From contig CM065887.1 of the NCBI GenBank assembly GCA_033439255.1, positions 2,232,001 through 2,296,000 on the forward strand: DNA of 64,000 nt, written 5' to 3'. The translations under genes and the position numbers were made by a program. How positions within the stretch are numbered: the first letter of the stretch is position 1; each line of letters begins with the position of its first letter. This DNA comes from Hericium rajendrae. Taxonomy: Eukaryota; Basidiomycota; Agaricomycetes; Russulales; Hericiaceae. Below, one piece after another: positions 41,927 through 64,000 of this stretch. The notes under the pieces were generated by a model, which saw nothing but the letters and a program-made list of their open reading frames with translations, did not search any database and was not told the DNA's origin.

Positions 41927-44900
41927 TAATTTCGAAAGACAAATTGCTAAAACCTCATTCCAGTCGCTTATGGACCACCTTGAATCATGCAGAGCGTTGA
42001 GGCCGATTGAGTCCGCTTTGTTATCAGAAGGTTATGTCCATGGCCGCAGTACGAAGGTGAGTAATAGAATAAGACTGCTTGAGAAGTCCCAAGCCCGATG
42101 GTTTTGGGGCACTCTCCGGGTGACATCTGACATATTTTTATTTTCTGGTGCAGTCGCCATCTTCGCTTCCATATCAGGAAGCCCATCGGAAACTGCAAAA
42201 AACAGATCACGCGGAGGGGAGTAGGGAGAGTACTACATCTTCCGTGGTATACAACAGTCATACGATGAGCTCAATCGTATTTAATTAGTCATAAATCTTA
42301 TCTGGACTGCATGTTGTACTGTTATGCTGAGGATCTATGGGAATGTTTAAGGGTCACTGTGAGGAGGTTTTAAAGCAGTGCACCGTATTCATGCATTGGT
42401 CTAACACACTGTCGGTTTATGACTGGTTACCGGGTACGTGTTGTTGGCCCGCATTGTGCGTGACACATGACGCGTGACGGACGACTGCGCTCGATTGCCC
42501 TCGGCGACTGCTCCACACTCTGCTCCCCGACTGCCAACTTGAACTAGGACTGCCTACTACCCGCAGCTGCTTACTCTCCTGATCCGACGCTGACAAACAC
42601 CTGTCATCGAGACACACTCGCGTTTTGAACTGTCTGAATTGTCTACCCTAGGTGTTCCAAACTACCCGTGACAAACATGCTCAATCGGAGACTTCAGGAA
42701 GTATCGTCTTCCCATCTTAGGCTGAGCATATCGCTCTCGACATAGCCTGCAACCCCACTCGATGCTGGTCTGTTTACAACCCACCACTTTGTAATATCCA
42801 TCGACGTATCTCTGTCGCTTTACCTTTTTATCTCTAGTCAAATGATGATACTCAATCGTATTGCTTCATGCTTCGCTGCGTGAGTCTCTATTATGATGCA
42901 TTCCAATGGCTCCTGAATTACCTGCTATCTCTTACAAGCTATGTATTAAAGTTCATCGACATGAATGGGACTCCTGATTTGATGTTTGCTGGACGACCAT
43001 TCGCGCTGTTGGGTTGGGAACGGTGCCTTCCCCTCCGGATCTGAGATTGCTGATGTTTTCTAGCTGGGGCGAGGTCCAGATGCGATGACCGTGGTCAAGG
43101 CGGTTGAGCGGCAGGCGGAGCTGTGGACAGGCGGGAGGGCAGCTGTACAACAGACTGCGCGCGCACATCATGCAATGCCGTGCGAGAATGGGTGTTCGAA
43201 CTCGCTTTCTCTCAATTGCCATCCGAGCCGGTATGATCAATCGTCTAACCCCCAGGTCTTCAGCACTGCAAGTCTTTCCGTTGTAAAACAAGGTCGGAAC
43301 GATTCGCATTGAGTTGTCTGCAAACGCAGCTGATACATTTCGTTATCATCGAGGGACATGCATCTCTGGTGGCCATTTGTCACGGTGCCATCATCACAGC
43401 TTGATCTACAGTGAGAGGTGCTCGAGATGGGCTTGATGTTGAAGGTGCGCAGTATGCAGCCCGCATTGCCTGTTCGTGAGATCTGCTCACCTATTAAGAC
43501 CTTGAATCCGGGCAGCGCTGCAGCACCAACATGATCTTTTGCGCGAGGGTTCCTCACGCGCTCTCTTTTGAAGGTGTTTTTGTGAGGCGCAACCGACTCG
43601 TAAGCTCTATGGCTTAGCAACAATACTTTGGATGACCACGGCGTGTGGCGCCTAGTTTGAGCGACCGCCGGCCAGTCATACTGGTTCCATATACTTCATC
43701 TGCTGAGGAGTGTCTGGCATTCGTGAAGGAAACTGCATCAAGATTAGACAGTAAATTACAGAGAGCTTTTCGATATTATCTAGCTGTCTTCCAGTGGCGA
43801 TTCTCTCGCACAAGTGGGCCAACGCTAGTTCGTGCTGCCCATCTTTCGGATGGCGGGCAGATATTATAATTGACCACGGCGTCGCGTGATTATGGTGGTA
43901 GTCGAGCGGTATCGCAAGATCGAGATCGATCGGCCCGCGTGGGAAGCCAGGATGCTGGTGTGGTCGATTTTTTACCTTTACTAAGCCTGACGGCGTGGCA
44001 ACTGATATCGACGACATCGTCCTGAGTCCAACTCGATGCACGAGAGCAGTGTGAGTAGCGAGCAGCGCCCTTCCGCCCTGCCATCTTTCTCCTACGGATC
44101 GCACAAAAAAGCCCGGGGCATCTCCTTCGCACGTTAAGATGTCCTGCTCGTGACGATGCTGACGAGGGCGATGGTGTCGTAAGTGAGTTTGAGCTCAATT
44201 TTGCACGCACGAGCATACTTACATCCTTCCAGAAGAAATTTGGGAGTAAGACTATGCCCCATTGGCCTTGAACAATCCCCAACTTTATCGGCGTCAAGGC
44301 GAAGGCGAGCTTGCGACGCGACGCATAGAGGGGCCGCCTGCCGCACATTAACCCTGATGCCGATGCCTGCACGTCTCCAGAGCAAGAGTCGAAGGAGCAG
44401 GAAATCCCAAAAATCACTCACCAGGTTCCTGGCGAGGTTCAAGTTGATCCGTAGCAAGACCCTTCACGCCGGACGGGCTGAGGCGCATGAGCGAGCTAGG
44501 GATGCGCGAGCACCGCATTGCAACGTGTCATGGCCGCTCTTCATTCCTGGATATTAAGAACAGAGAACTGGTACGAGGATTGGCACGTACACGCTACAGA
44601 ACCACGACTGATGGTCCACGTCCCCCTCGCTCTTCTTCAGCTCGAGCACATCTTTCTGTTCTGTAGCCGTTATCACCACCATCAACATGGGCACCACCCA
44701 TCCATGCACAACAAATCACACGCACCAGTGCGGACTGCCGACATTGCATCCCCTCACATGTTTGCACTGGGTGCGTTTTATTCCGGTCTTCCCAGCGCAG
44801 TCGCCTGCACGGACGCGAACGCGAATAGTTCCTCGCGCGACGACGTAGGAGATCTGCTCGGTCGGAATCGAACAATGACTTGTTAGTGTCCGAACGCAAG

Positions 44901-44960
44901 ACCTCGCAGGCGCATGATGTCGAGTCGCCAAAGAAGATGAGACGAGCGGGACGTAGGACG
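41927..44960. other. gene-poor stretch; composition changes here
   Basis: No recognisable gene. Minus-strand frames at 43237-43623 and 43676-44104 (HPGFPRGPIDLDLAIPLDYH) look weakly protein-like but do not splice to anything I know. From about 43-44 kb onward the sequence is visibly richer in G and C than the first two-thirds of the window. Confidence 0.4.
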
Positions 44961-45812
44961 CAGGACGGCCGCGAAAACCAAAAATTCATCACCTAGACAC
45001 TCCCGCCCAGCATCGTCAGCCAGCAATCAAACAAGAAGAGAGATCAAGCAGACTAGCGTTCATGAAGGACAGCCCCGTCCACTGGACGAGGTACTCAATG
45101 CCAAGCAGGAACTCGGGTGCGAGGCCCAACGAGAGCTAGTCGACTTCATCGGCTGGCAGAGGCCCGCTGCGATCATGCCCCAGCGAGACGGTGACGAATG
45201 TGAGTGAGTAGTTAGATCGGACAGTGGTCCTGAATCCATGTGGCTAGCTGGTCAAGCGTTGGTGGTTTTTTAACCCCTGCGTTTGGCTTCGTTTGCTTAG
45301 TCGCTTTCAAAAGGCTGCTTTGGGCGCTTTGCACGACTAACACAACGACCACCATCCACCAGGACGACTCTACAGCACCCCACACATATCCTCCCAAGTC
45401 TACTACTCATGTGCCTATTTTCGTTCCGCTCTCTTATCTCCTTTTGGCGGCGTCTTCGTGTGCTTTGGGCTCGCCCGAATGGTGACAGCGGGGAGGTGGT
45501 GAGCATGGCAAGCGTTCCGGCCGTGTACGAACTCGGGTAAGTGTGTTTTCTGTGCATGCAGGAGCTAGTACTCATGGTTGCAGGGCTGAGGCTCCGGCTG
45601 CTCTGATGGCCATCATGCCATTCGGTTTGGAGGTCATTCAAGAGGCCGAGCAGGGTGATTTGGATGGTGGAGGAGAGAGCGACGGCGACGGCGAGGAGCC
45701 TGGGCACGGCGCAGAGGGCGCCGAGCGAGACGAGGACGAGCAAGGCGCTGCCATGGCCCTGACGCCGTTCGGTTTAGAGGTTATACAGGAAGAAGCAGAG
45801 GGCGAGCAATAG
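44961..45812 (+). CDS. possible exons of an unrecognised acidic protein
   Basis: Two plus-strand stretches read like exons. The first, after a CGTAG acceptor near 44960, contains RPASSSASNQTRREIKQTSV and PLDEVLNAKQELGCEAQREL, then VDFIGWQRPAAIMPQRDGDE before a GTGAGT donor at about 45199. The second, about 45581-45812, has a duplicated 9-mer: MPFGLEVIQEAEQ near its start and TPFGLEVIQEEAEGEQ at its stop, separated by an acidic GGGESDGDGEEPGHGAEG tract. Whether the two belong together is not known; the sequence between them (45200-45580) has a hydrophobic frame that may be another exon. I recognise no family. Confidence 0.35.
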
Positions 45813-47036: not shown

Positions 47037-48260
47037 TTCATACTTGCAGAAGTTTTGACATGCAAAGGCGACTGTTTATATATCCTATCGTGGTTATCTC
47101 ATTGTTCATGTTTGCAGATTCGACAGGAGCATCGTGCTCCTCGAGGGCGTTGCTGTGCCGGGAAAAACGATCAGCGTGACGGTTGGCAATGTCGAACCGC
47201 ATGTCAGGCAGGTGCGTTCGTCCCGGTGGGGAAGGGGGCAGATTCATCTGATTTTGAGGCTGCAGGAGCACCTGCTGTTTACCATTGACTATGTACAACC
47301 TTCCGAGACAGAAATTCCAGATGAACGGAAACTTGACTCAAATGATCTCACTGAGATCCACAGTCCCAGACTCTAGGATGCGGCGATAGAATCTGGCGCG
47401 TCTGTCTCCAGGGTCAGGTTCGCGTAGATTGTCGACCTTCTCGCTGGGGACGGCGTCGGCAGAGCCATTCTGGACGGTATTAAGTGAGTCGTGTCCTTAT
47501 CGGCGTGCATTTTAAGGCTAATGATGTCGTATGGATGAGGCATACGTCGCGATATCACGAAACTCTATCTGTTGAGGTGTCCCCACGTTGACGGTGCTAC
47601 TTACGAATAATCATACTTGCTGTCGACAGGCTCGACTTCGATTCGTGCCGATTCGCGAGGACAATTGTGGAGGCCTCGACAGGGTTGTTACATGGCATGC
47701 AAATGATCGCCATTGCTGTCGACTTACAGGGCTTCCATTCGTGTCGATTGGCAAGCAGGTGAGTGTCGACGGCGATTGCTGACGGCAATTGTCAACGGTG
47801 ATTGTCCATAGCCACTGTCAACTGCCGTTGTCCACAACCACAGATGAGTCGAACCACAGTGGCACTGTGGACTGTCGTAGTGGACAATGGACAATGGACA
47901 ATGGACAATGGACAGTCAAGATATTTTTTTGAAACACTTAAGCAGAAGATCCTTGGAAAATTTGAATAGTACGTCCAGTATTCCGTTTAATAGAATGTAA
48001 AGCAGATTTAAAAATCGCGGCATGTTTTCCATGGATTTGCGCTGACAAGAAACTTCAATTCTCAGGTGCGAAAAAAAGTTGAGAATATTGACGGCAGATT
48101 TTATGTTCTCTGTGTATTCTCTTCGAGCTATTGTGTATTGAGAGTCAGAAATAATTTCCTGATAGTATGAGGAGCATGTTTGGAGGAAGATTTAAGATAC
48201 AACGAGATATTTGCTACGACTTTTCAGGACACTCTGATTTGAGATTTCAGGTGCCAGCTT
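47037..48260. other. intergenic; change from GC-rich to AT-rich sequence
   Basis: 47134-47376 has a plus-strand frame (VLLEGVAVPGKTISVTVGNV) that may be decayed coding sequence, family unknown. 47590-47880 is rich in GTCGAC/GTCCAC-type words. A 7-bp repeat lies at 47881-47912, and from about 47915 the sequence turns strongly AT-rich. Confidence 0.4.
47881..47912 (+). repeat. (TGGACAA)n 7-bp tandem repeat
   Basis: Four and a half perfect copies of TGGACAA at the junction between GC-richer sequence and the AT-rich island. Confidence 0.85.
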
Positions 48261-48419
48261 ATGTTTCGTAGATCAGTAGCATATCTTGGATTAAGAGACG
48301 AAGAAAGTGCTGCGACATTGATGGATCTCCATAACAACAAACACATCAAAAGAACGAAGGAGTATTGGAAGTCGTCCTGCAGAGAAGATCTTGAAGAATA
48401 TCGGAAGGAGGCTCAATAA
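48261..48419 (+). other. short protein-like frame inside AT-rich island
   Basis: Within an AT-rich patch (about 47915-48545) that contrasts with its surroundings, a frame of 52 codons after a TTTCAG acceptor reads MFRRSVAYLGLRDEESAATL and then HIKRTKEYWKSSCREDLEEY and stops. It is lysine- and glutamate-rich and looks like the last exon of something, but I recognise no family. Confidence 0.3.
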
Positions 48420-48556
48420 CTTCCGTGCCGGAACAAGCTACGAAGATTCCCTAGATTATTTCAAATCTTCCTCCGACTTTCTCCGACGTTACATCTATCG
48501 CTGTTTTGACGTCTTTACTCTGATATTATTCACATATTCTTGGGCGTAAAATTGGG

Positions 48557-50196
48557 CTATGCCTGCAGTGCAGCAGCCGCAGACACACCAGCTGCGAGGA
48601 ACAGGGGGGCAGAGCTCTGAGCGACCCCGCTTGGTTCCTTTTCCTGCAGAGGATGAGGCTAAGAACAAGGTCTAAATGCATTTCATACCCATACCTTCCA
48701 TTTCTGCCCTGTTTCAGCCATTGCCTGCTCACTGCCCTCGCCCTCGCCCTCGCCCTCGGCCTCGCCCTCGGCATCGCGGTCCTCGTCGCTGTCCTCGTCG
48801 CTGCCCTTGCTGTCCTCTTTGCTGTCCTCGGGGGCCTTCTCGCCGTCGTCCTCGCCGTCGTCCTTGTGGTCGTCCTTGTGGTCGTCCTTGCGGTCGTCCT
48901 TACGGTCTTCGCGGGCCTCCTTGCGGTCACCCTCGCGGTCGTCCTCGTCGCTGTCCTCGCCACTGTTTTCGCCGCTATCCTCGCCGCTATCCTCGTCGCT
49001 GTCCTCATCGTTGTCAACCGTCTACCCAACAACCACAAATTTCAACACCGACATGCAGCAGAACAACGCGAGCTTACTGGAGAGCGTGGTGCTGCCCTGC
49101 CCCTTCCCCGGCGACGTGCCTTCCATGACTGGCTGACCTCTTCCTAACAAGGGGTGAGGATGGATGAACTCGCACACTCCCCCAACGGCAGCTTACCTCT
49201 GCTATCTAACCACCGCCAAACACATTCATGGTCATCAGATCTATGTCTCAAAGCAGGACAGCACGAGACCATGGCATTACCTTTCGCACATGTGTGCTTG
49301 GATGCCTCGCATTATCAATAGTCAGTTTCACGAACGGAGACCAGTCACCAAATTTTCGCGTATGCGATGTATCGATCGGCTCCACTGCAATTTGCAGGAC
49401 GTTGCACTTTTGCGACATGTCTCGATCAGGCACCCAGTAATTGTCGCGGAATGGGCAAGACGAAAAGATGGCTATCCGGGCAGCTCGGTGTTTCTCTTCT
49501 CCCTTAGCCCACGCCGCCCAGTTGTGCTGGTTTTCCAGATCACCTGCGAGAATCCTCAGGATGACGTCCGATGCTGTGGCTGCAGGTGGACCACGTACCA
49601 AAGTTCAGGGGGTTGCCAAATTGCCTAAGGGCCTTCAGTTTTGGCCACTCCTTGACATCGTCCTGCACCAGAGGGCCCTGGCTGTGGTACTGAAGCAAGG
49701 CCCATGCATCTACCAAAGGCCACCTCCAGGTTTCCTCCCAGGGGGATTGGTCGAGCGCCGTGGAGAGGACCGAGTGGTAGAAGTGATAGTGCGCATCCGT
49801 GTGGACAAGGTACGTGTCCGCAATGCTGGATTCTACCCTTCCCTCAGCCTTCTCCTCCTCCAGGGCAACTCGCTGCCACACGCAGTCGTTCAGTATCTTC
49901 AGCAGAAACCGCATGATGCTAAAATAGCGAGGAGGGAAAGAGCGGCCCACAAGGTCGCCCTTCTTCGTCATTACAATTTTCTTGCCTTCCTGGCCTTCCC
50001 TCACTGAGAATCTCTTTTTGTGGACACTGTACCATGGGGCATTGTCCTTGTCCGTGTTCAGTACCAACACGTGCATGACACGTGGGACTTTCGCGGGCAC
50101 CTTCTCTGGGCCTAGGACCAAACTCCTGAGGGTACTGAAGCCTTCCTTGCTGACATAGTCTTCCTCGGCACTGGCAGATGGCGGCTCGGACGGCAT
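48557..50196 (-). CDS. unknown acidic-tail protein, module copy A
   Basis: Minus-strand gene. Exon 1 from ATG at 50196 (MPSEPPSASAEEDYVSKEGF) runs through KKGDLVGRSFPPRYFSIMRF, NDCVWQRVALEEEKAEGRVE, SSIADTYLVHTDAHYHFYHS and DAWALLQYHSQGPLVQDDVK, and ends LNFG at a GTACGT donor. A 55-nt intron brings in DLENQHNWAAWAKGEEKHRA, IAIFSSCPFRDNYWVPDRDM and FGDWSPFVKLTIDNARHPS. Further exons lead to a long Asp/Glu tail (DNDEDSDEDSGEDSGEN) coded by an imperfect hexanucleotide repeat, and a last exon reads EKEPSGVAQSSAPLFLAAG, stop at 48557. The splice between VRK (near 49260) and the tail exons is not settled. Copy B at 52736-54816 matches it throughout the first two exons. Function unknown; conserved W, H and C residues suggest a folded domain followed by an acidic, histone-like-binding tail (inference). 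Confidence 0.62.
48720..49020 (-). repeat. imperfect hexanucleotide repeat coding the acidic tail of copy A
   Basis: On the plus strand it reads as GTCCTCGCCGTC-like and CCTCGCCCTCGG-like hexamers; on the minus strand it codes alternating Asp/Glu with Ser, Gly and Lys in the frame used by the gene. Long plus-strand frames over this segment are by-products. Confidence 0.65.
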
Positions 50197-50698
50197 CGTT
50201 GTTGTAGTTGGGGAGTTGGGTGGACAGCGTGGTTCGCTTTGAAGCCTTTGCATCTGCAAACGTGCCACTTAGATGCTGCCCCTAAAATGGAAATAGGCAT
50301 TCAATCTCCACATACTCCGACCCTTGGATGCAGCCACGCGGCGATGACCCTTGCAGACAGCACTTTACCACGTCACGCACACATATCTCATTGCCGAGTG
50401 TAGCTTGTATGTTTTGGTCCACGCACATCTACAATCCCCAGTCGCGCCAGCACAATTCACACTGCCCGGGCGTGTATCTGGCAATCGGGCTCTGTGATTG
50501 ATTAATAAGAGATCAAGATCCACTTACTAATGAGCCAATCTCACGGCACGAGTCAACACCGGACCGACATGCGAAGATCGTGGTCACCCGATATAGGTAA
50601 ATCTGCACAGCCACTGATTGATTGCACTCGCTGGCGGTTCGTCTTTGCTGGTACTGTCTTCTCTCTTTCCTCCTCCTACCACCATCCCCCCTCCTCGA
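50197..50698. other. upstream region of copy A gene
   Basis: 50525-50680 (starting CTTACTAATGAGCCAATCTC and containing GATTGATTGCACTCGCTGGC) recurs nearly unchanged at 55552-55700. It separates the gene from the minisatellite in both copies and is the best promoter candidate. Confidence 0.5.
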
Positions 50699-51460
50699 TG
50701 TCTGCTGGCAGCTGCTATCAGCCGACGACGATGCGGGGTTGGGTTCACGGCGTCTTGCTGGCGGCTGCTATCAACCGATGGCGACATGGAGGAGGGTTCA
50801 CGGCGTCTTGCTGGCGGCTGCTATCAACCGATGGCGACATGGAGGAGGGTTCACGACGTCTGCTGGCGGCTGCTATCAACCGACGACGATGCGGGGTTGG
50901 GTTCACGGCGTCTTGCTGGCGGCTGCTATCAACCGATGGCGACATGGAGGAGGGTTCGCGACGTCTGCTGGCGGCTGCTATCAACCGACGACGACGCGGG
51001 GTTGGGTTCACGGCGTCTTGCTGGCGGCTGCTATCAACCGACGGCGATGTGAGGTTGGGTTCGCGGCATCTGCTGGCAGCTGCTATTAGCCGACGACCAC
51101 GTCGCAGAGGGCTCACGGCGTCTTGCTGGCGGCTGCTATCAACCGACGGCGGCATCGCAGAGGGTTCACGGCGTCTTGCTGGTGGCTGCTATCAACCGAC
51201 GGCGACGCGAGGGAGGGTTCGCGACGTCTTGCTGGCGGCTGCTATCAGCCGATGACGACGTGGCAGAGGGTTCGCGGCGTCTGCTGGCAGCTGCTATCAG
51301 CCGACGGCGACATGGCAGAGGGTGCACGACGTCTTGCTGGCGGCTGCTATCAACCGACGGCGACGTGGGGTTGGGTGCGCGGCGTCTGCTGGCGTCTGCT
51401 ATCAGCTGAGGCCGGCGTGGCAGAGCATTCACGACGTCTGCTGGCAGCCGCTACGGGTGA
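50699..51460 (+). repeat. G-rich minisatellite array A, about 53-bp unit, 14 copies
   Basis: Units contain CTGGCGGCTGCTATCAACCG then ACGGCGACGTGGGGTTGGGT and a TTCACGGCGTCTTG end, with variants (GGAGGAGGGTT, GGCAGAGGGTT). The unit is about 51-55 bp, so all three plus-strand frames stay open for long distances. The G-rich half (GGGGTTGGG) could form quadruplexes. Array B at 55720-56395 is built of the same unit. Confidence 0.85.
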
Positions 51461-52735
51461 CGGCGACGTCGCAGGATGGCTGTCGTCCGTTCGAAATGCC
51501 TATGTTCACCTCTCGGTTGGTCCGCACCAGGCATGTGTGCTGGTGCTCTGATGGCAGCCGCCGTGGCCCTGATGAACCTAAGCACCCACAAAACACCCGT
51601 GGTGCCCATGCCTAGGCCATGCCCGACCAATGCAGGCACAGGATCCTGCAAACACGGTGGCCCCCCCCGCAGCTAGGGCATCTGCGTAATGGAAAGGGTG
51701 GGGGGCATGAAATCTGCCACACAGGACGGCGGGTCATCCCTCCTCGGTCCCGCATTCTGCGCAGGTAGGTTTGCCTCCCCTCCACGCCGCCTACACACAG
51801 GTGACCACTCACCCTTCCTCTCCATCCCACTACCGAGTTCTCCCTGCCCCCTCTCCTTTCTTCCCACATATCGCCCGCCACCCCCCGCTTTTGCTCCCCT
51901 CAAGACTCTGTGTGATCCACAACTTCCCGTGCTCCATCTGGGCACATGCAAGCTTCCCGCTATGTTACCCACACCCTCCTTGGCTCCCGGTATGCCTTCG
52001 ACACCGGCTTGCGGGCTAGCCACTCCATGCGCCCCTGCTGCAGCCTGCAAAGTCAGCGCTTATCCTGAACAGTGCCTATCACCCTCAGCGCCAGAAGCGG
52101 GCGTCTCATGTCTATGTTCGCCTGCCAGAGGTATGTGCAAACATTCTGCAGCCCCCCCCCCCCCCCCCCCCCAACCCAGGTGGCGCAGCAACACATAGCA
52201 GGTGCCTATGACCCATGCTGGCCATGTGTCAGGTGCCAACAACGTGCGCACACCCCCCGCCAGATGCCAGCAAAGCTCGCAGGGCCTCAATAGCCCGCCA
52301 AGCGATAGCAACGCGTGTGCAGGCTGCCAATGACATGAGCGGGTCATCAAGGACATATACGCGACCCCCCCCCCCCCCAGCACGTGGGCATGCTGTGCGC
52401 CAAGCACGCCGGGTCCCGCAGGGCGTGCCAGACGCAGCAACACAAACGGCCTCACCGCCGCCCCAGCAACATGCAGGCAAGTCTCGACGGTGTGCGCAGG
52501 ACCTTCAACAGGCTGTCACTTCCATGGGCCCTTGTAGACAGTACTCATGTCATCCCCTCATGTCATACGTTGTGTAATCATTATTTGAATGCTATTGACA
52601 TGCTACCCTTGTGGATGCTATGAGGCGGGCCTGATCATCTCCAGCCAGCAGTCCTTGGCCAAACCCATGTGGCAGCTATCCCTCTCCTGCCACCTATCTA
52701 CTTAATTGCCCGCCGGCATTTCTGTTTGCCAGATG
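51461..52735. other. spacer between module copies; homopolymer C tracts
   Basis: No gene recognised. Runs of 21 C at 52152-52172 and 14 C at 52365-52378 are prominent. Pro/Ser-rich plus-strand frames (51689-52198) reflect C-rich composition. Confidence 0.5.
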
Positions 52736-54816
52736 TTATTTTTTCCCTGCAGGGCTGACCCTGTTGTCTCTCCGGCGTCGCTTAACGTCTGCGACATGGC
52801 CGGAGGGCTTCTGATCGGATAGCTGGATGTAGGTGACGAGTGAGTGCTTCAAATCAACTATGAACTGCGTGGATACGACTGACGCACCTGTCGCTCGTGT
52901 TTGTTGCTGACCGCCATGCTCGGCCCAGCCCTCTTTACCCGGCCACGGCTGACCTGAGGGTCACCATCATTGCCTGAACCCTGTTCGATATCCATTGCGT
53001 CCTGCCCATTGGCCCCAAACGTGCCACCTAAAGACACAGTGGCAGGGCTCGTGACAACTGGGCTTAGTTCCTTTGTATGTGCAGGATCAGAGCAACAGCC
53101 GGTGTGATCTTGATTCGTATAAACACACCTTCGCTTCCTGCCCTATATCGGCCATTGCCACGTCGGTTTCTTCCACCGGGACAGTGACAGACTCTGCAAG
53201 CGTGGGCGCACGCTGCTCACCCGATTTCTCCCCCCTTCCTCCCTCGTCCATCTTATCTTCGTCTCTTTCCTTTGTTGGGGTGGGCTGCAGTCGCTGGATA
53301 TCAAAAAGAAGTCTATGGGCATGCCATGACCACTTACCTTGCTGTCACTGTGCCAGCTGTCATCGCTGTCCCAGCCGTCCGAATCGCCACCCTGTGTGTC
53401 AGACACGTCACTGTCTAAAAAAAAAAGGGCCGTAAATGTCTGATATGGACATACCTCCCGCCCTGGTTGCAACTGGTTGCCGCCTGCCTTTGACCGGAGC
53501 CCCATCACGTGGGGAAAAAAAGGAAAGATAAAGCATCGCTCACCTCTGTCTCACCCTCTTCTGACTGGCCAGCCCCGCTGCCCTCGTCTTCCTTCTCTGA
53601 TTCTGTGCTCTCCTCGCTGCTGCCGTCAACCACGGCATTGTTGTCGATGTCAATTATCTACCGCACAGTGATGAATTTCAACATGCAGCACAACAACGCG
53701 GGCTTACTGTAGAGTGGGGTGCTGGCGTGCCCCATCCCCGGTGATGCTCCGTCCGCAATTGACTGGCCTCTTTCTAAGAAGAGAGTGAGGATGGATGAAA
53801 TCGCACGCTCCCCCAACGGCAGCTTACCTCCGCTATCTAATCATTGCCAGATGCATTCATGATAATCAGATCTGTCTCAAAGCAGGAGAGCCTGAGACCA
53901 TGGCATTACCTTTCGCACCTCTGCATTTGGCTGCCTCGCGTGTTCAAGAGTCAGTTCCACGAATGGAGGCCAGTCACCACTTTCTATGTCATCTGACACG
54001 TCCACCGGCCCCAGTCTCACTCCCAGCTCCTTGCACGTTCGCACTGCATCTCGATCAAGCACCCAGTTCTGGTCGCGGAACGGGCAAGAGGAGAATATGG
54101 TTATCCTAGCAGCTCGGTGTTTCTCTTCTCCCTGGGCCCACGCCGCCCAGTTGTACTTGTTTTCCAGGTCATCTGCGAGAATCCTCACCATATCCCATGC
54201 CGTTGCTGCAGCCAAACCACGCACCAAACTTCAGGGGGTCGCCAAGTTTCCTAAGGGCCTCCAATTTTGGCCACTTCGTGACATCCTCCTGCACCATAGG
54301 GCCCTGGCCATGGTACTGAAGCAAGGCCCATGCATCTAGCAAAGGCCACCTTTCACTGTGGTTCCCAGACCTTCCCTCGACCGCCAGCATGAGGGTGTTG
54401 AAATAGAAGTGATACTGCGCATTCGTGTGGACAAGGTACGTGTCCGCGATGCTGGACTCTACCCTCCCCTTTGCCTTCTCCTCCTCCAGGGCAACTCGCT
54501 GCCAGACGCATTCATTCTGTATTTTGACGAGGAACCGTGCGATGCTAAAATAGCAGGGGGGGATGTCGCCGATCTCGAGCTCGCCCTTCTTGCGCATGTG
54601 AATAAGGCCTGCCTTTCGGTCTACCTCAAAACGAGTTTGGTAGAGGTGGAACTCTTTTGCTTTGTCATTCCCCATTCCTTGCACCAACCTATGCGTCCAA
54701 CGCGGGGCTTTCTTAGGCACCTTCTCCGGCCGGGGGAACAAAAATGTGAGGGAATTCAGATCCTCCTGGCGGACGTACACTTCCTCCGTGCTGGAAGATG
54801 AAGGTTTGGAGGCCAT
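52736..54816 (-). CDS. unknown acidic-tail protein, module copy B
   Basis: Paralogue of the gene at 48557-50196. Exon 1 from ATG at 54816 (MASKPSSSSTEEVYVRQEDL) has the same landmarks: IPPCYFSIARFLVKIQNECV, WQRVALEEEKAKGRVESSIA, DTYLVHTNAQYHFYFNTLM, DAWALLQYHGQGPMVQEDVT. A 52-nt intron (GTGCGT...CTCGCAG) leads to DLENKYNWAAWAQGEEKHRA, SSCPFRDQNWVLDRDAVRTC and SGDWPPFVELTLEHARQPN. Later exons supply an acidic tail (IIDIDNNAVVDGSSEESTES, DSDVSDTQGGDSDGWDSDDS), then LSPVVTSPATVSLGGTFGAN and a basic end (VKRRRRDNRVSPAGKK), stop at 52736. The basic end could be a nuclear signal and is absent from copy A, whose tail is shorter. The join just after AEVRK is not certain. Function unknown. Confidence 0.62.
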
Positions 54817-55719
54817 GGCTGTTGTAGTCGAGGAGTGATCTGCAATCAATCGATGGCACGGTTTGTTTTGAGGCCTCGGCGCCTGCTACATATATTCTGC
54901 CACTAAAAATGGAAATATGGGTGGAAGCTCGGCGTACACCGGCCCTCGAGCACAGCCACGTGGCTCGCGCTCGCAGATGGCATCCCGCCTTGTTACTTTT
55001 CCCTGTTGGTCCGCTGACCACCTACCACCTCCACCAAAAACTGCAAGAGATCAACGGTTTATGGGGCACGTCTTTGTGTTTGTTTGCCACCCCTCGCGCT
55101 TTATCACGTGGTATCCAATGCCATCGCGATGTGCCCTTGGTATGTCTTGTGTGCAATTATGTACCAAAACCTCTTCCAATGGAGTCCATTTCCTCACTGT
55201 CTCAGACTCTTTTGAGCGGGAGTCCAAGAATTCTTGCTCGCTGCAGATGATGTTATGGTGGTGCCGCAGATGAAGTCTGGTAGTTTTGCCATTTGAAACC
55301 ACATCCTAGGCCACGAGCAACGTCTCCCTTCGTCAACCATGTTTCCGTTCAGGCCACCTCATCGAAAAGGTCACCGGACGGGGCACCGGAATGTGGCCAA
55401 ATTCTCCTCTTCTCCTTCGTTCCTGTCCCCTTGCGGCCCTCAGGAACGACTCTTCGCCAAAATCCCATCTCGTAAATTCCGGTGGCGGCCGGCACAACTT
55501 GCGCTGACTTACGCCGCCCAGATGCATACTATCAAGAGATCAAGATCCACTTACTAATGAGCCAATCTCATGGCACGCAACGCCGGACCGACATGCGGAG
55601 ATCGTGGTCACCCGATATAGGTAAATCTGCACAGCCACTGATTGATTGCACTCGCTGGCGGTTCGTCTTTGCTGGCACTGTCTTCTCTCTTTCCTCCCGC
55701 CATCCCTCCTCCTCGACGT
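54817..55719. other. upstream region of copy B gene
   Basis: 54890-55540 shows no gene and has no clear counterpart in copy A. 55552-55700 is the block shared with copy A at 50525-50680. Confidence 0.5.
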
Positions 55720-56395
55720 CTGCTAGCAGCTGCTACCCTGTCCCCCGCGATCTCTGCTGGCGGCTGCTGTCAACCGACGGTGACGTGGGGTTGGGTTCAC
55801 GGTGTCTGCTGGCGGCTGCTATCAGCCGAAGGCGACGTGGGGTTGGGTTCACGACGTCTGCTCGCGGCTGCTATCAGCCGAAGGCGACGTGGGGTTGGGT
55901 GCACGGCGTCTTGCTGGCGGCTGCTATCAGCCGACGGCGACGGCGTCTTGCTGGCGGCTGCTATCAACCGACGGCGACGTGGGGTTGGGTTCGCGGCATC
56001 TGCTGGTGGCTGCTATCAACCGACGGCGACGTGGCAGAGGGTGCACGGCGTCTTGCTGGCGGCTGCTATCAACCGACGGCGACGTGGGGTTGGGTTCGCA
56101 GTGTCTGCTGGCGGCTGCTATCAGCCGACGGCGACGTGGCAGAGGGTTCGCGGCATCTGCTGGCGGCTGCTATCAACCGACGGCGACGTGGGGGTGCACG
56201 CGTCTGCTGGCGGCTGCTATCAACCGACGGCGATGTGGGGTTGGGTTCGCGGCGTCTGCTGGCGGCTGCTATCAACCGACGGCGACGTGGCAGAGGGTGC
56301 ACGACGTCTGCTGGCGGCTGCTATCAACCGACGGCGACGTGGGGTTGGGTTCGCGTGTCTGCTGGCGGCTGCTATCAGCCGACGGCGGCGTCGCA
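55720..56395 (+). repeat. G-rich minisatellite array B, about 53-bp unit, 13 copies
   Basis: Same unit as array A, more homogeneous: CTGGCGGCTGCTATCAACCG followed by ACGGCGACGTGGGGTTGGGT. One short unit (near 55930-55950) lacks the G-rich half. The open plus-strand frames of 236-365 codons across it are not genes. Confidence 0.85.
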
Positions 56396-56396
56396 G

Positions 56397-56775
56397 AGGA
56401 TGGAAGATGCCTGCTGCGATGGCTGAAGCCTACCCTCACCTCCTGGTCCCTGCGGCTCAAAGGGGACCCCAGTTCGATGGCTGGCAGGGGCCATCAGCCG
56501 CCGGCGCTCTGATGGGAAGCCACAGGGCCCTGATGTCTGCTGGCACCTGCCCCAGCCAAACGGCGAGGTCGCTGGAGGATGGAAGATGCCTGCTGCGATG
56601 GCTGAAGCCTACCCTCAGATGCCTGCTGCCTGGTCCCTCACCTCCTGGTCCCTGCAGCTCAAAGGGGACCCCAGTTCGATGGCTGGCAGGGGCCAGGCCA
56701 GCCTGCCGGCGCTCTGATGGGAAGCCACAGCGGCCCTGATGATGCTGAGCACCTGCCCCGAGCCAAACGGCGGAG
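56397..56775 (+). repeat. tandem duplication, about 180-200-bp unit, 2 copies
   Basis: GGATGGAAGATGCCTGCTGC at about 56398 and again at about 56577 starts two copies that share CTCAAAGGGGACCCCAGTTC, GATGGCTGGCAGGGGCCA and GGCGCTCTGATGGGAAGCCA. The second copy has a short insertion (CAGATGCCTGCTGCCTGGTC). It follows array B directly. Confidence 0.8.
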
Positions 56776-58877
56776 GTTTGTTTGCAGGCAGGCTGGAGGG
56801 GCAGGTAATCCTACGCCTCATGGGAAGGGTGTAAAAATGGGCCTGTCCCACAGGCCTGGTGGCATCTGCTGGCCGCCACTCCGGCTGGCGGTGAGGCCAC
56901 GTAGGGGTTCGGCGGCCCATCCCATCCCCTGTCATACCTGTGGGCAGCCCCTTGCGGCTCATGGCCATGCGGCCGGGCGATGGGCAGGCTCTACCCTGGC
57001 GATGCTGCCCCGGCGACCGCGCCCACTCCCCTCTCTGCCCATTCTTCCTTAGCTCGAACGAAGGCGCGTGGCCAGAGTTTGAACCCAGCACGCAAACCAA
57101 ACTACCTGCCCCTCATTCATAAATCTGTGAGCAACGACTTCGAGTACATCGGGGTGTTGAATGGGCGTTGCCATTTGGAAGGCGCCCGCCCATTTTCTGG
57201 CCTGCAGGCCTGCTCTCTGGTCTCTCTGTTTGCCAGTGCAAAAAATCGTTGTCTGAGTGCCTGGCATGTGCCCTGGAGCTGGCAGCACAAGGTGGCTTTG
57301 CCCTGTGGGCAGCTCTGCTGAGTCATCACTGTAGACAGCCATGGCCTGGCGGCAGGCCCCCCCCCTGCTCCCTCCCAGGCAGCCAAGGAGCTGGCGCACC
57401 GCCAGGACTTCCCACACCCCTCCTCCTGCTCCCGCGGCTCCGCGCAGCCACCTTTCCCTCACCCAGTGCCCTTCAGTCCGTGTCGCCAAGGCCTGCTCGC
57501 TGCGCTGGTGCTGGCCGAATGCGCTTGGTCAGTTGCAAGAGGCCCCGGGAGTCAGTTGTTGGCAGATTTGGCCGGGGCAACTGCTGTCGTCTGAGATGCT
57601 CCTGTGGCCGGAAAGCTTGTCTTCGCAAGGCACTCGAAGCATTACCGAAGGCAAGGCTGCTGGCCTCCATCAGCCAGGGGAGTGGCTTCGTGATAGGCCT
57701 TGTGAAGGTACTCTTGTGCCCGCCCGGGAATGGGCTCCCTCATCTTGGCCGCAGCTGGTCGATAGCCACGCACAAAAACGTGCCACGTGTCTCAGGCTTC
57801 TTGTGCTCGGTTTGCCAAGACTCGAGTGCCGCCGCCGCCGGCGGAGCCCTTGCTCGGAGTTCGAGTTCAGCTGGAAGGCCTGACGGTGGCCAACCTGGAG
57901 GTCATCGATCATCTTCTGAAATTGGACATTATCATGTGATGTGCCTCTCTTTATAACGCCAGTATCTAGTTTTTCGTTCGAATTCTCTTTGACAATGCCA
58001 GGATCAAGGTTAGCTGAGGATGAATAGTCAGCCGTTGAGGGATCAAAGCTCTGAAGCCAGAGTCGCGCATTACCTCGCCCATAAGTACCAATAAGAGTGT
58101 TGGAGTGCATTCGTGCTCAATACCCGACGGTCTGGTTTGTATGCCAGTGCGATGAGTTGCGCAGTCAGTGAGTAGCCAGTGCCCAACACGATGACTTCAA
58201 CATGAGATCACAGTTGACGTCATTCGAAGCAGAAAAGGAAATTTTATCCTAATAAGGCATTTGTTTGTTCGAGGACGCTGTGCCTGCACGATTTCACACA
58301 GCATTGTGAGACTGGAGAGCCTGCTCTCCGAGCAAGGGATCTCTGGCACGGCTCGGGATGTCGACCACGTGGCTCTGCCTCGTTGCGTCACAGTCGGATC
58401 GACTAGCTTCGGCCTTAATAAACCCCCCAGTTGTCATCAGACATATCACCCATGACAGCCAAGCGTAGGCACGCCAGTGATCTCATCGACAGGCTGCCAC
58501 CGTGGTGGTACCTGCCTATACACCCAGCACTTCTGGGTAGTGATCTCGCACCTTGTCGAAGTCCACGAAGTGGCATTTTTTTTTTTTAGAAAAACTCGAA
58601 TTCATCTTTCATTTACTGACTCTAGGGACCTTTTTTCGAAGTTGAGGCCCATTTTTCACGAAGACGAGCTTTGGATTGGGCGGAGAAACGACGCATCCAC
58701 CAAAATGCCGACGGATGGGCCCAGCCGCTTCCACAGAAGTGTCACCTCATTTATGAGATCACCTGGAGCCGGCTGGGAACGAGCCTAGTGCTATTGCAGA
58801 AGGCAGGCAGCTGGGAAGCAGGCGTATTCCTAGAAACAGTACGTAAAGATCGACAGATATTTACATAATAGGAGCTT
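56776..58877. other. GC-rich stretch, unassigned frames
   Basis: Minus-strand frames at 57049-57490 (KWAGAFQMATPIQHPDVLEV) and 57473-58110 (KPETRGTFLCVAIDQLR, FDPSTADYSSSANLDPGIVK) have some protein character and may be exons of a decayed gene. I recognise no family, and plus-strand frames here are equally long. A T-run sits near 58577. Confidence 0.35.
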
Positions 58878-60547
58878 CTACGGGGAGCCGAAAACTTCAC
58901 GCTGGTCAGCAGCCAGCTCGTAATAGTTGGAGAAAAGCCGCCTGCACTTCTCACGACGAGCGCCGCTAGGCCCGTCCACTCCTCTCTTTCCGCCGGAGTC
59001 ATTTTGCCGACCGGACGGTTGCCGCAGCACTGCCACTGGATCAGGGCGCCAGGGCAGTACTGGGTAAAAGAATACCTGGTTTCACCAGGCTGGATTGGCG
59101 TGTTCCCATGCCTCAAACAGGCAGAGGGAATCAGGACGCTGGCGCCCGGGGGGAACTCCACGGCAAAGCCAAGGTCCCAGAAGACGAGGTGGCCACCTTT
59201 CTTTGGGTCGAAGTTCCCCAAAGCCGTAATTTGGCAATATCCGTAAGGGACGTTCTGCGAGTCCACGTGAATGCAGCATGCAGTGGCGGGCCCCAGGTTG
59301 AAGTTGGTGGAGGGGAAGATGCTCTCTTTGAACAGCGGCGTCAGTTTGTAGTCCTCATATATAGGTTTGAGGTGATCAGCGTAGTGCTTGTAGACTTTAG
59401 GTGCGCAGTATGCCAAGGACTCTGGATGCCAAAATCAGCATAGGCCCACAAACAGGAAAATGAATACTTGCTGCTTCCATACGCCGCAATTCGCTTGATT
59501 GCTGGCATCGCGACCAGTCGGTCGACCAGCTCCTGGTTCTTCTTCGTATTCTTGCGGTACCCCGGCACCTGCACCTCCCTTATCAGCCAGGCGCCTCGTA
59601 TGGGAAACAACGGGCTTACCGGCCTACTGCTCATGGGGGCGTGCGAAATGCCTGCGGATAGCGCAGCAAAGATGCCCCGTTTGCCGGACGATTTCAGCCC
59701 GGGCTCCAGGTTTCCATCTACATGAACCTGTTCGAGGGCTGTGGCCGCCTCCGCCGCCACTGTTGGCCAACCAGGGTCATTGGGTTGGCCAAGGAAATGG
59801 GCGATCCCATACTTCATGAGGTCAAGCGCCTCCATCGGATAACTTTGAAGAGGGACACGTAAACAAAAACCGCGCAGCCAGCATGGACACTTACCGTCCA
59901 TCCCATGGGATAATATCGAAGCCGAGGTTGTTCAGCTGCTCGATAGACAATGGCCCCGTCCCGATTCTGGCTTGACGCTTCCCCACGTATGCATTCTGGG
60001 TGGCAGAAAAGTCGCTAGCTTTGCAGTTGACTTCAATAGCTGGAGGCGTTGCATGCCTCTCAGCGATTCAGGGCTTGAGCTTGAAGTCGAAGGCGCTGCA
60101 GGCCTCCCTGTTGGCCTCTCGTCTACGGCGACGGCAGTTATCGCTTCCTTTCTCTTTGCCACCACCTTCGTCGAACACTGCCTTCGTGGCCCGTTCCTTA
60201 TCTGCGACTGTTGCTGAAGGCACGGCTTGGGGATCTGCAGGAAGTTGGCCCGGGGAGAGGCTGGTCGGAGGTGGGAAAGGTGTGGCACTGGCAGCGATGC
60301 GTGCAAGCGGGGCAGCTGGGCGCGACATGCCCGTGGAGCCAAGATCCTGGGGCACAGCCGCCGTGTCGATGCTGCCAAAGCCAGCCTTGCAGCCACTGGC
60401 GGACACCTCCACAGCCACACCTGTCCCTTGGGCGGCAGCTGCCTCACCGCCAGTGCCAGCATCCTGCAGCGCGCGATCCATCAAAGCGAACAAGCTGGCT
60501 TGTGTCTGAATGACCTGCGCTGGGATGTCTCCATCCTTCGTGTGCAT
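58878..60547 (-). pseudogene. TET/JBP-type dioxygenase, damaged second copy
   Basis: Same family as the 10573 gene. Exon 1 (from Met 60547) ends in CRRRRREANREACSAFDFKL, is broken by an in-frame TGA near 60065, and goes on in frame as IAERHATPPAIEVNCKASDF and QLNNLGFDIIPWDGR. The next exon holds MKYGIAHFLGQPNDPGWPTV, ISHAPMSSRPVSPLFPIRGA and ELVDRLVAMPAIKRIAAYGS. The last exon has the whole catalytic core: CIHVDSQNVPYGYCQITAL, KKGGHLVFWDLGFAVEFPPG, CLRHGNTPIQPGETRYSFTQ. A one-base frameshift after REEWTG moves the C-terminus (EKCRRLFSNYYELAADQREV) to another frame, with the expected stop at 58878. So two lesions, both outside the iron and 2-oxoglutarate residues. It is better conserved against the family consensus than copy 1 in the core. 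I saw no intron that would remove either lesion. Confidence 0.82.
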
Positions 60548-61495
60548 CAGGGCCTGTGGAAAAAAGAGAAAATACCTGACATACGGCGCCAGCTATGCCT
60601 GCTGAGGCCTGCCCCTGATCTGCGTGGGATCAGACACAGTCAGCACGTAGTTCCATGCAGAAAAAGAGCCACGTGCCCTGTCCGATGGTTCCAGACAAAA
60701 CGCCAGCTGGGCCCTCGTAAGGGCGCGGCAGCCTCCCACCACGACTCCAGCGAATGAGGTCACCGGGCTGCCCGCTCCAACGTAAACACAAAATGAGTCG
60801 CTCACCATAGCATTGGTCCATGCTGGAAAGCAAGAAAGAGGGGGGTCGCTGGGAAGGTTGGCTTTGGAAAGAAGATGCCTGCGAGCTACCGTTAAATACC
60901 CCATTCAAACGCCACAAGGCCGCAACGGGCGCCGCAGCCTTTTCATCTCCATGCGCCCACCGCACGGCCAACGTGCCCGACAGGTGCCCTCTAATTATCC
61001 GTTGAAACGTCAAAAGGCAGCCATGGCCCCGGCAGCCTCGCCATCCCCACGCTGATCGCACGACTAACTGCGCGCCTTGTACGTCATTGCAACGTGTTCA
61101 GAGCAGATGCCGGTCACTTGGCAAGGAGCCAAGCAGCTTTCATGCAGACGCCATATGCTGCTTTCAATCGACAATTTTCGCATACACGCGGGCCAGCTCG
61201 CATCAGAGAGGTTCTCAATCGTCTGACAACCCCGTTTCCAAATTTGGAAATCCCATCCCCGAGAAACAAAGCTCAATAGATCGGTGAAAATCGATGGGTA
61301 GATAGGCAAGCGCTAACGGCCCGATCGATAAACACAAAACCCCAAGCCACTGGAAACGTGCCCTGCCAAATTAAGCTGTTCCAGTTGCCGGAGCACTCGC
61401 GTGGCTGGCTGGTGCACGATGCATCGATATCGAGCTTGACCATGCACAGCAGGATATGCTGAGAAAGCACGGCCTGTGTTTCATCTTCTGCTGCC
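60548..61495. other. intergenic between divergent TET/JBP and GRF-like genes
   Basis: Shared upstream region. Frames at 60593-61061 overlap on both strands with no recognisable protein. Confidence 0.4.
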
Positions 61496-62700
61496 ATGTC
61501 TCGCTTTACCGGCTCACAACAAGCTGTTGCAGTTACTATTGACCCCAGCCACCTACTGGTCATGTGCTGGTGCACACCGCCCTGTATGGCGAAAGGCGTG
61601 TGCTCAAAGCAAGGGCCCAACAAGGACAAGATCACATGGATCTGTCGCTGGTTCAACAAAGGCGACTACCGACATGACAGTGACCCAAAGCCATGCGGGT
61701 TCCGTGGTGCATGCTGTTGCTCGAGATCGGTCTGCCAAAGCTGTGGGTGATGCCTTGGCCCAGTATATGACTGCGCACTGGACGGCCGCCAGCACCGTCT
61801 TCCGCCCTCAAAGGCATACACAGACGCGTGGGCGCGGGTCCAAGAGGACATGCAGCAGTTACGGAAGGAGCGGCAGCAGGGTATGCGTTCTTTGCCTGCG
61901 TGGCGGGCAAGCTGACAGGTTTGGCACAGAACGGCGGCCGGTGAGCCCCGAGACATCAACCACAGGGCAGGAAAGCAGCCCGTCGTGGGGACTGGCTGGA
62001 AATTCTTCGCCTGGCTCCGTCCTCGGGAAGCGTGAGCGGGTCGGCGCCCAGGGCGCCCAAGATGGGAGCAGCCCTAGGCGCATGCGTTGCGTAATGGCTG
62101 GCCCATCATCTCCTGCAACACCAGTGCAGGAGGAGGCGACGGGAAGGGACGGGTCAGGTGGAGAATTGCTGACGTGGAGGTATTCGCTTGTCAGCCTGCG
62201 AAAAAGTGAGATAGGCAAGGAGAAAGGCAAGGAGAAGGCTGGCAGCAGGGAAGGTGGGGACGGACCTTCATCAGTATGCTTTCCCTGTCTCCTTTGCGTC
62301 TCAAATTTTGTGACTGGGCCTTTGGCAGGATAGTGTTTCACATCTGAAGGCCCGTGTTTCAGTGTGAGTGCGGCGTGCTTTTCTTTGCCACCAGTGCTGA
62401 GTAATGCAGCGAGCAGGCAGGCCGAGGAGTTAGAGGTGCAGAAAGGGATGCTCCTCGAAAAGATGGTCGTTATCCAAGCACTGCAGGAACAGTGCCAAGA
62501 GCTGAAGGAGGAGAACTCTTCCTTACAGCCGTTTGCGAAATTATGCGGAATCGCCGCGCATTTTTCAGCCAGCGGTGGCGTTCGGTCCACACCGGTCCGG
62601 AGATTAGTAAACACGACGTGTCGTGTCTCAGACTCTCACGTGTCCACGTCAATGTTCATCGTTCAATCTGCTTGACATATCTATAATCCCTTCGCACAGA
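61496..62700 (+). CDS. GRF-like zinc-finger plus coiled-coil protein, possibly degenerate
   Basis: From ATG at 61496 (MSRFTGSQQAVAVTIDPSHL) the frame gives MCWCTPPCMAKGVCSKQGPN then KDKITWIC and KPCGF. The Cys spacing and GPNK core resemble GRF zinc fingers (C-C-GxNxGRxFxxC-CxF), which bind single-stranded nucleic acid, although the usual GR pair is KD here. It continues in other frames with AKAVGDALAQYMTAHWTAAS and AYTDAWARVQEDMQQLRKER. A 49-nt intron (GTATGC...GCACAG) joins exactly to RRPVSPETSTTGQESSPSWG and GSVLGKRERVGAQGAQDGSS. A final exon is coiled coil (RQAEELEVQKGMLLEKMVVI, QEQCQELKEENSS). Two frame changes between the finger and the coil have only unusually short introns as an explanation (about 17 and 22-37 nt), so frameshifts are likely. 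It is divergent from the TET/JBP copy 0.95 kb away. Confidence 0.45.
62523..62610 (+). repeat. left arm of 88-bp inverted repeat
   Basis: Begins TTACAGCCGTTTGCGAAATT and ends CCGGAGATTAGTAA. It matches 63308-63394 in inverted orientation with two substitutions and one 1-nt gap. The sequence beyond either end of the arm does not match, so the repeat edges are sharp. Confidence 0.85.
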
Positions 62701-62743
62701 GCTGGTTGTCGTAATGCTCTATACCGTACAGGAGCAGACAAAG

Positions 62744-62812
62744 GTATGTCAGCCTGGTGCAACGGAAGTTCGCATGGAATTTCGACTTGTGTGGGTGCGA
62801 CTTGACTTATGC
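62744..62812 (+). other. tRNA-like sequence with A-box and B-box (relic or SINE head)
   Basis: TGGTGCAACGG at 62755-62765 fits the RNA polymerase III A-box TRGYNNARNNG, and GGTGCGACTTG at 62795-62805 resembles a B-box GGTTCGANNCC with one key change. Spacing and the intervening TTCGCATGGAATTTCGACTT fit a tRNA arm layout, but no clean acceptor stem forms, so it is not a working tRNA. It lies between the arms of the 88-bp inverted repeat. Confidence 0.35.
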
Positions 62813-63307
62813 TGTTTGGCTTTGGCTTTCGGCAACAGCCGGATGCGTCCCGATGGATTCCCATTGTGGCAGGTCACAGCGCTCTGTGCCGAGCGCGCTG
62901 CGGTAAATATTGTTTGCGAGCCTCAAGGCATAGCAAAGAACTATGCATGTGCAGAAAGCTCACAGACTGAAAGCACTGAGCAAGACAGCACTTTCAAAAG
63001 TGCTAATCTTCTTTGCCGGTGCGACATCTCGCAACATACGACGGCCGAGTGTTTAGGGACAGCGCTTATCAAGACACTGTTTGAGGCAACCGAGCCCGGC
63101 CGCTCTGGCCGTTTTAAGCTGCAGCCTTGACAGGATATGTTTTTCGAAGACACACAACACTCAAAATATGATACTCTTGGCCAACAGGTTTTCAAAATGT
63201 GATTATAATGCCTCTTTAGAAATTTTGAGTCCCAAGCAGTCTACAAAAGACAGAGTACATAGAACTTTGCAGCAAAGAGTTGTCGATGTGTCACAGCTCG
63301 AACGCAC

Positions 63308-63394
63308 TTACTAATCTCCGGACCGGTGTGGACCGAACGCCACCGCTGCTGAAAAACGCGCAGCGATTCCGCATAATTTCGCAAACGGCTGTAA
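63308..63394 (-). repeat. right arm of 88-bp inverted repeat
   Basis: Inverted copy of 62523-62610. Together the arms bound an 872-bp segment with TTAC...GTAA outer ends. No target-site duplication is apparent at either end. Confidence 0.85.
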
Positions 63395-64000
63395 GGGCCA
63401 CGCTGGAGGAATTTGAGAAGGCGTTCAGTGGACAATGAGCTGCCCGGGCAATTGTTTACATATCTTTCCACAGTCTGCCACTAAACACTGCTGCTGTGCC
63501 GCTAGTGGGTTTGAGCTGCTGCGTTTCGGCCAATCACTGCATGCCGCGCCCTGCATGTCTTAGGAACAAAATGTCGCAGTCTGCCATCAGGCCTGCCATC
63601 ATTCTTACGACCCTACTCTGCCTTCCATCCAAGCATTTCAATTATAATTTGAACTTTCACTCTAATGTTTTCAAAGACACTGCCACCGCCGTAAACCAAC
63701 CCATCACCCGCTGCGTTGACCTACCCCCGCCCGCTGATCGCACGGCTACCTACATAATTGCGAGGCGCCCGGAGCAGATGTGGGTCAGTTATTTCTCAGA
63801 TCCTGGCTGGCCCTTCAACCCAGTGCGCGGCCACGTGGTCACGCACGTTCTCTTCACACGTACAAGTACCTACCTCATGGGCGCCACGGCCTATGCCTGT
63901 CCTTTACCCTCCCACCTACGCATCCGACCCACATCTGACCCTGTCTCTGCCGTTCTTTTTCTCTCACCCCTGAACTCTACAGGACCCACCATGGATCTGG

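Follow-up and report, generated by a model that had tools for sequence, protein, structure and literature searches.

A tandem pair of gene-plus-minisatellite modules in Hericium rajendrae as part of a probable subtelomeric duplicon

Introduction

Why do two genes without recognised relatives, each with an array of the same minisatellite unit upstream, lie in tandem near one end of a contig of the basidiomycete Hericium rajendrae? The locus was met in a 64,000-nucleotide stretch, here called the window (bases 2232001-2296000 of contig C10, CM065887.1, 2306246 bases long, in assembly GCA_033439255.1 of 46.77 Mb and 19 contigs; contigs are cited as C2 to C19, with L and R for their left and right ends). 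An initial annotation, made from the letters alone, had described there a direct duplication of a gene-plus-array module and suggested a functional or mobile unit, perhaps one in which the array controls expression. We report here that the pair most likely belongs to a subtelomeric duplicon, which would carry an old tandem pair of fast-evolving fungal genes confined to contig ends. Three observations together argue for such a duplicon and against a mobile module: collinear segments shared between contig ends, the position of the whole gene family near those ends, and the tie of a conserved block and the array to the modules.

Results

Architecture of the module pair

The duplication described in the initial annotation is confirmed. 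The two modules lie in the same orientation, each composed of a minus-strand intron-containing gene, a block of about 165 bp and an array of a common 52-53-bp unit. Gene models were built manually, with short introns and GT-AG splice sites. The features are as follows (window coordinates, unstranded unless a strand is given; TRF, Tandem Repeats Finder).

48557-50196, minus strand: module-1 gene, manual model, a splice-consistent open reading frame of 449 amino acids
50196-49599, 49543-49281, 49205-49197, 49143-49078, 49021-48695, 48643-48557, minus strand: module-1 exons
50507-50673: module-1 conserved upstream block, 97.6% identical to the module-2 block; 11 genome matches, a lower bound
50703-51453: module-1 minisatellite array, 53-bp unit, 14.3 copies (TRF and genome search)
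52858-54816, minus strand: module-2 gene, manual model of 8 exons, a splice-consistent open reading frame of 495 amino acids
54816-54225, 54172-53910, 53836-53828, 53773-53708, 53657-53555, 53414-53338, 53293-53129, 53070-52858, minus strand: module-2 exons
55534-55697: module-2 conserved upstream block (genome matches and comparison with the module-1 block)
55753-56391: module-2 minisatellite array, period 52, 12.7 copies (TRF and genome search)
48571-64000: portion of the putative subtelomeric duplicon inside the window (blastn against the left end of C9, both ends of C11, and C19)

The motifs quoted in the initial annotation (SSIADTYLVHT, WAAWA-GEEKHRA and SSCPFRD) and the acidic tail are present in both proteins. 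In each, a region of about 285 residues encoded by exons 1-2 precedes the tail, which is of low complexity, and we infer an N-terminal domain followed by a disordered acidic tail. The block, put at about 150 bp in that annotation, is indeed there and slightly longer. Between modules, blastn aligns the gene bodies (49008-50216 with 53644-54836, 74.9%) and the block plus array (50507-51443 with 55534-56416, 82.7%), while the interval between ATG and block, 310 bases in one module and 717 in the other, gives no blastn match and reaches 73.5% over 302 columns in a forced global alignment. The two arrays are built from one repeat family, as had been claimed: mean unit distances are about 0.13-0.17 between array types and 0.11-0.17 within arrays, for the 154 of 170 units that have 50-55 bases. 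Long plus-strand frames cross the arrays; a coding role was nevertheless rejected, because unit lengths of 52 and 53 bases do not preserve the reading frame and because the unit, read by eye, has no stop on the plus strand.

A collinear segment shared between contig ends

The module pair is far beyond chance, since further copies at 93.9-99.2% identity are present on several contig ends (window matches longer than 2.5 kb, the lower values spanning the arrays). When extracted stretches were compared by blastn, the pair was found embedded in a longer collinear segment on C10R, C9L, C11L, C11R and C19, with a further part on C16, which starts within the duplicon; C19 holds two copies of the segment. 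Array-free stretches are 98.8 and 99.2% identical between ends over 5.9 kb, a difference of about 1%. Between the window copies of exon 1 and those elsewhere, identity is 99.2-99.7%, and exon 1 of module 1 is free of indels and stops in all five copies compared.

Two other explanations of the repeated copies can be judged on these data. Firstly, the gene and array could be a unit that transposes as one piece, as the initial annotation had suggested; gene and array keep a constant order, both within the tandem pair and from one contig end to another, which would agree with this. However, homology extends beyond the pair, every end compared having its copies within one collinear longer segment, which largely refutes this reading; no target duplication was seen around the pair when the flanks were inspected by alignment and by eye, and genome searches with gene, block and array gave no interior copies. 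A mobile unit is therefore scarcely credible. Secondly, the copies could be an artefact of assembly, for example duplicated haplotypes: C19 is small (191,581 bases), of uncertain placement and bears two segment copies, and C16 begins inside the duplicon. Against this, indels and array length distinguish the copies on C9, C10 and C11 from one another, as do an insertion of about 97.7 kb on C10 and an insert on C9, making an artefact very improbable.

Distribution of the gene family, the block and the array

With exon 1 of module 2 as query, the gene family gave 24 matches in the assembly, none of the 24 more than about 135 kb away from a contig end: on C9 left (26-45 kb from the end), C10 right (25-133 kb), C11 left (81-134 kb) and C11 right, C8 left (12-16 kb), C16 left (1-2 kb) and the short contig C19. 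A divergent family member as query returned the same loci, apart from one C6 match at an expectation value (E) of 0.58 that was not counted. The genome searches for block and array, whose counts are lower bounds, gave 11 block matches, all inside the same limit of about 135 kb, five adjoining module 1 and six adjoining module 2, i.e. one per gene copy, and at least 85 array matches from 12 candidate places, confined across the whole genome to modules of these two types. The array is present at 11 of 11 module gene copies. At an internal C19 copy the module-1 array was found, and searches did not turn up the module-1 gene and block; this copy begins within the array at C19:113225, with transposon-like repeats on the other side of the junction. 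Because of those repeats, the break was not taken as evidence for recombination in the array.

Does the array accompany the family at large? Divergent members occupy ten loci (C9:44 kb, C10:2173 kb, C11:98 kb, C11:130 kb, C11:134 kb, C11:2232 kb, C16:1 kb, C19:156 kb, C8:12 kb and C8:15.5 kb), none of which overlaps any block or array match, and TRF (periods of at least 15, at least three copies) found no array of the module type at the six of these loci that lie outside C11:98-134 kb and C19:156 kb. Thus, the recurrence of the array upstream of other members, which the initial annotation had named as support, holds at every module-1 and module-2 gene copy and fails at the divergent members, so that the wider family does include genes without an array, an outcome which that annotation had named as refuting its reading. 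As judged from these sequences, the array is not a general feature of the family and is tied to the module-1 and module-2 genes.

Sequence evolution of genes, blocks and arrays

Between modules, exon 1 is given as 57% identical (74% where it is set beside introns and block), with nonsynonymous and synonymous divergences (dN and dS) of 0.31 and 0.61, a dN/dS of 0.51, and a ratio of the corresponding uncorrected proportions (pN/pS) of 0.61 (bootstrap 0.45-0.79). For either module against divergent members, pN/pS is 0.66-0.78 and dS runs from 1.6 up to saturation. At the level of sequence comparison this shows exon 1 to be under purifying selection, though the proteins evolve fast. These values bear on the possibility that the genes are accessory leftovers of transposons that gather at chromosome ends, with little or no selection acting on the genes. 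Such leftovers would fit the transposon-like repeats in and beside the duplicon, the want of a significant Pfam relative, the high dN/dS and the one frameshifted copy described below. But the exon-1 pN/pS stays below 1 throughout its bootstrap interval, the exon-1 boundary follows a GDPLxFG motif in divergent members too (by eye), and no element ends were seen around the genes, and we consider this origin unlikely.

Identity between the modules is 79-85% in introns, 74% in exon 1, 80.5% in exon 2 and 97.6% in the block. Set against the near-identity of exon 1 between ends, its divergence between modules indicates that the gene duplication is much older than the spread between ends. Within the block, four fixed differences set module 1 apart from module 2 at all ends, without chromosome-specific sharing, and the other changes are a single altered base in module 2 of C11R and a deletion of 3 bases in module 2 of C10. 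Fixed differences on every end, in a block so much more alike than the genes, suggest that, once the genes had diverged, block and array underwent an exchange or stayed similar, and that the segment spread later; for the block, the probable cause is homogenisation between the modules or constraint. The copy number of module-1 arrays varies between 11.3 and 33.6, a roughly threefold range of length across ends. Five of six module-2 arrays have a common starting order of unit types and vary afterwards, the internal C19 copy being off by one unit, in a comparison in which two module-2 arrays were cut by the extracted ranges.

The ratio of observed to expected CpG (o/e) is 1.17-1.19 in the arrays, 0.80 in the duplicon within the window and 0.97 in the insertion at its edge. 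The high array value would suit an unmethylated island; it may merely reflect the composition of the unit.

Much of the duplicon, both in window 48571-64000 and at the other contig ends extracted, is depleted in CpG with raised TpG/CpA, as would be expected if the repeats are methylated. Its 4-kb pieces are mostly at 0.6-0.9 o/e and a few at 0.98-1.15; pieces of the insertion are at 0.89-1.05.

Could the block be a promoter, and the CpG-rich array tune or insulate expression in a CpG-depleted subtelomere? The near-identity of the block beside an ATG-to-block interval without a blastn match, the array at each of the 11 module gene copies and the contrast in CpG between array and duplicon all speak for this. 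On the other hand, the block stands at unequal distances from the ATG, the length of the module-1 array varies threefold, the divergent members have neither block nor array, and exchange between modules accounts equally well for the identity of the block. A regulatory unit of this kind, with the array as a required expression switch, is thus possible but unlikely, and we lean towards the array being a passive or recombination-prone passenger.

Together, these results are best accommodated by a subtelomeric duplicon formed in three steps. An old tandem duplication of a fast-evolving gene would have produced the two modules; after the genes had diverged, and before the segment spread, the block of about 165 bp would have been kept alike by exchange or constraint; and the pair would then have been copied to several chromosome ends by subtelomeric exchange, within a duplicon of tens of kilobases. 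The GC-rich array would be a minisatellite of unstable length, and the block beside it a candidate upstream control region. Several points weigh against this account. In exon 2, pN/pS between modules is 0.74 (interval 0.48-1.31), not clearly below 1; the C11R module-2 copy (C11:2250969-2251602) has a 2-bp deletion in exon 1; the roles given to block and array are putative; and four tandem TTAGGG units, the sole telomere repeat tried, have no match in the assembly, so that the contig ends, which we infer to be chromosome ends, are not proven to be such.

A long EnSpm/CACTA-like insertion at the left edge

The initial annotation had placed the module edge at 48557. That position is not an edge: on C10 the shared segment stops at window 48571, where a transposon-like insertion starts, and the copies on C9, both ends of C11 and C19 run on across that point. 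The preceding part of the segment reaches C10:2182835, and the insertion, of about 97.7 kb, occupies C10:2182836-2280570 (+/- two bases), its right half being window 1-48570. It has inverted repeats of about 965 bp, CAC..GTG termini and a CAG target duplication, termini and duplication having been read from the junctions by comparison with C9 and C11R, where the site is uninterrupted.

47617-48570: right terminal inverted repeat of the insertion, a 94% inverted match (906/965 columns) to C10:2182836 onward

The 3' part of the module-1 gene contains a 242-bp repeat, present in 3.1 copies at other ends, and it is in this repeat that the insertion sits. The final 14 bases of the gene in the window fall inside the insertion; the C-terminus of the window's module-1 protein therefore differs from its copies. 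CAC..GTG termini, inverted repeats and a 3-bp target duplication make it EnSpm/CACTA-like. No transposase was matched in the 18 of 39 open frames of at least 140 amino acids scanned in window 1-48570, and about 1.5 kb of the left half was read; Plavaka-type transposases gave at least 132 matches, none of those listed lying inside the insertion (123 of 166 candidates scored). Their abundance in the assembly, like the short GT-AG introns, would suit an agaricomycete-like fungus. Related pairs of inverted repeats (76-79%) occur on C7, with a spacing of about 9 kb, on C12, with one of 11 kb, and on C6, where the two are adjacent. Window 43881-45805, within the insertion, has a 96% inverted copy at C10:2219908-2221832. 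Since the inverted repeats differ by 6%, as against about 1% for the duplicon, they probably diverged before the insertion event here. A nested or composite origin is possible.

Window 34365-35656 holds a 417-bp tandem repeat (3.1 copies) within an open frame of 796 amino acids that has a high content of Ser, Pro and Gln.

Protein identity

The initial annotation did not recognise the protein family, and neither did our searches of Pfam, NCBIfam and the PDB, which yielded no significant relative. Pfam, at E up to 1, gave no family for either spliced module protein and, with three exon-1 relatives added, none for four of the five; the fifth, a C8 relative, drew NinE (E 0.054) and DUF5677 (E 0.15), both weak and below cut-off. 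Four exon pieces had no match in NCBIfam, a five-member profile against PDB sequences gave nothing significant (best E 0.07, a pantothenate kinase, not counted), and 184 pattern matches in viral contigs included no relative. The structure prediction that had been proposed for the N-terminal domain produced an exon-1 model of modest confidence (mean predicted local distance difference test score, pLDDT, of 69; other four models 42-54), with no PDB match at E <=0.001, a comparison that carries little weight given those scores. A literature search on such genes and on the insertion found no paper on this case, which is not proof that none is in print.

Other features of the contig ends

An open frame distal to the family genes is common to several ends (C9:13072-14001, C10:2299805-2300734, C11:2263531-2264460 and C8:5567-6511), and its C9 and C8 versions have weak Pkinase and APH matches near cut-offs. 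Weak Tet_JBP and 2OG-FeII_Oxy_3 matches, below curated cut-offs, occur at window 10573-11547 and 58751-59416 (both minus strand), in insertion and duplicon, respectively. The insert in the C9 duplicon copy (C9:36823-39518) is transposon-like, with relatives on many contigs. A palindromic repeat, GCACGAGGACAGCTGTCCTCGTGC, has at least 53 sites at up to two mismatches (backward control 0), in part as 52-53-bp arrays, at C8:1-730 and 62.5 kb, C9:1-11 kb, C11:153 kb and 2179-2203 kb, C2:4476-4493 kb, C13:2050 kb and C19:83-105 kb; those of C8, C9, C11 and C19 all lie within about 155 kb of a contig end. Rfam, at gathering scores, has no match in the window.

Comparison with known systems

A bolder reading, which we think improbable, is that of an undescribed, rapidly evolving family found only at chromosome ends of this fungus, in two lineages of which minisatellite and block would be inherited together and form a platform for expression control or for recombination between ends. 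If so, their role would be comparable to that of the repeat arrays that precede subtelomeric contingency genes elsewhere among eukaryotes. Trypanosome variant surface glycoprotein (VSG) genes have 70-bp repeats upstream, and they resemble our locus in having a repeat array upstream of subtelomeric genes; the likeness is one of array position alone, with no sign here of switching or of array-driven coding conversion.

The insertion shares CAC..GTG termini and a 3-bp target duplication with EnSpm elements as characterised in PMC12730594, and differs from the fungal EnSpm/CACTA elements treated there in its length of about 97.7 kb, in its inverted repeats of about 965 bp and in giving no transposase match in the frames scanned. 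It is far larger than the enlarged En/Spm families of a red alga, given as 16-20 kb in PMC6431247. This very long EnSpm-like insertion at the edge of the duplicon may be the more unusual feature of the locus.

Subtelomeric RecQ-like helicase genes are described in PMC7473861 for Agaricus bisporus var. burnettii and other fungi; neither module protein has a helicase or other Pfam domain, and the likeness lies in multicopy subtelomeric genes in a basidiomycete. Set beside the definition of fungal subtelomeres with duplicated gene families in PMC8381367, our locus differs in its unassigned family, in the failure to find TTAGGG x4 and in a minisatellite directly upstream of every copy of two gene types, and agrees in duplication at multiple ends, an end-confined gene family and tandem repeats. 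It illustrates clearly how a gene family in which no domain is recognised can be restricted to contig ends in a basidiomycete, and its five or six near-identical copies per gene on different ends lend themselves to studies of how ends exchange sequence.

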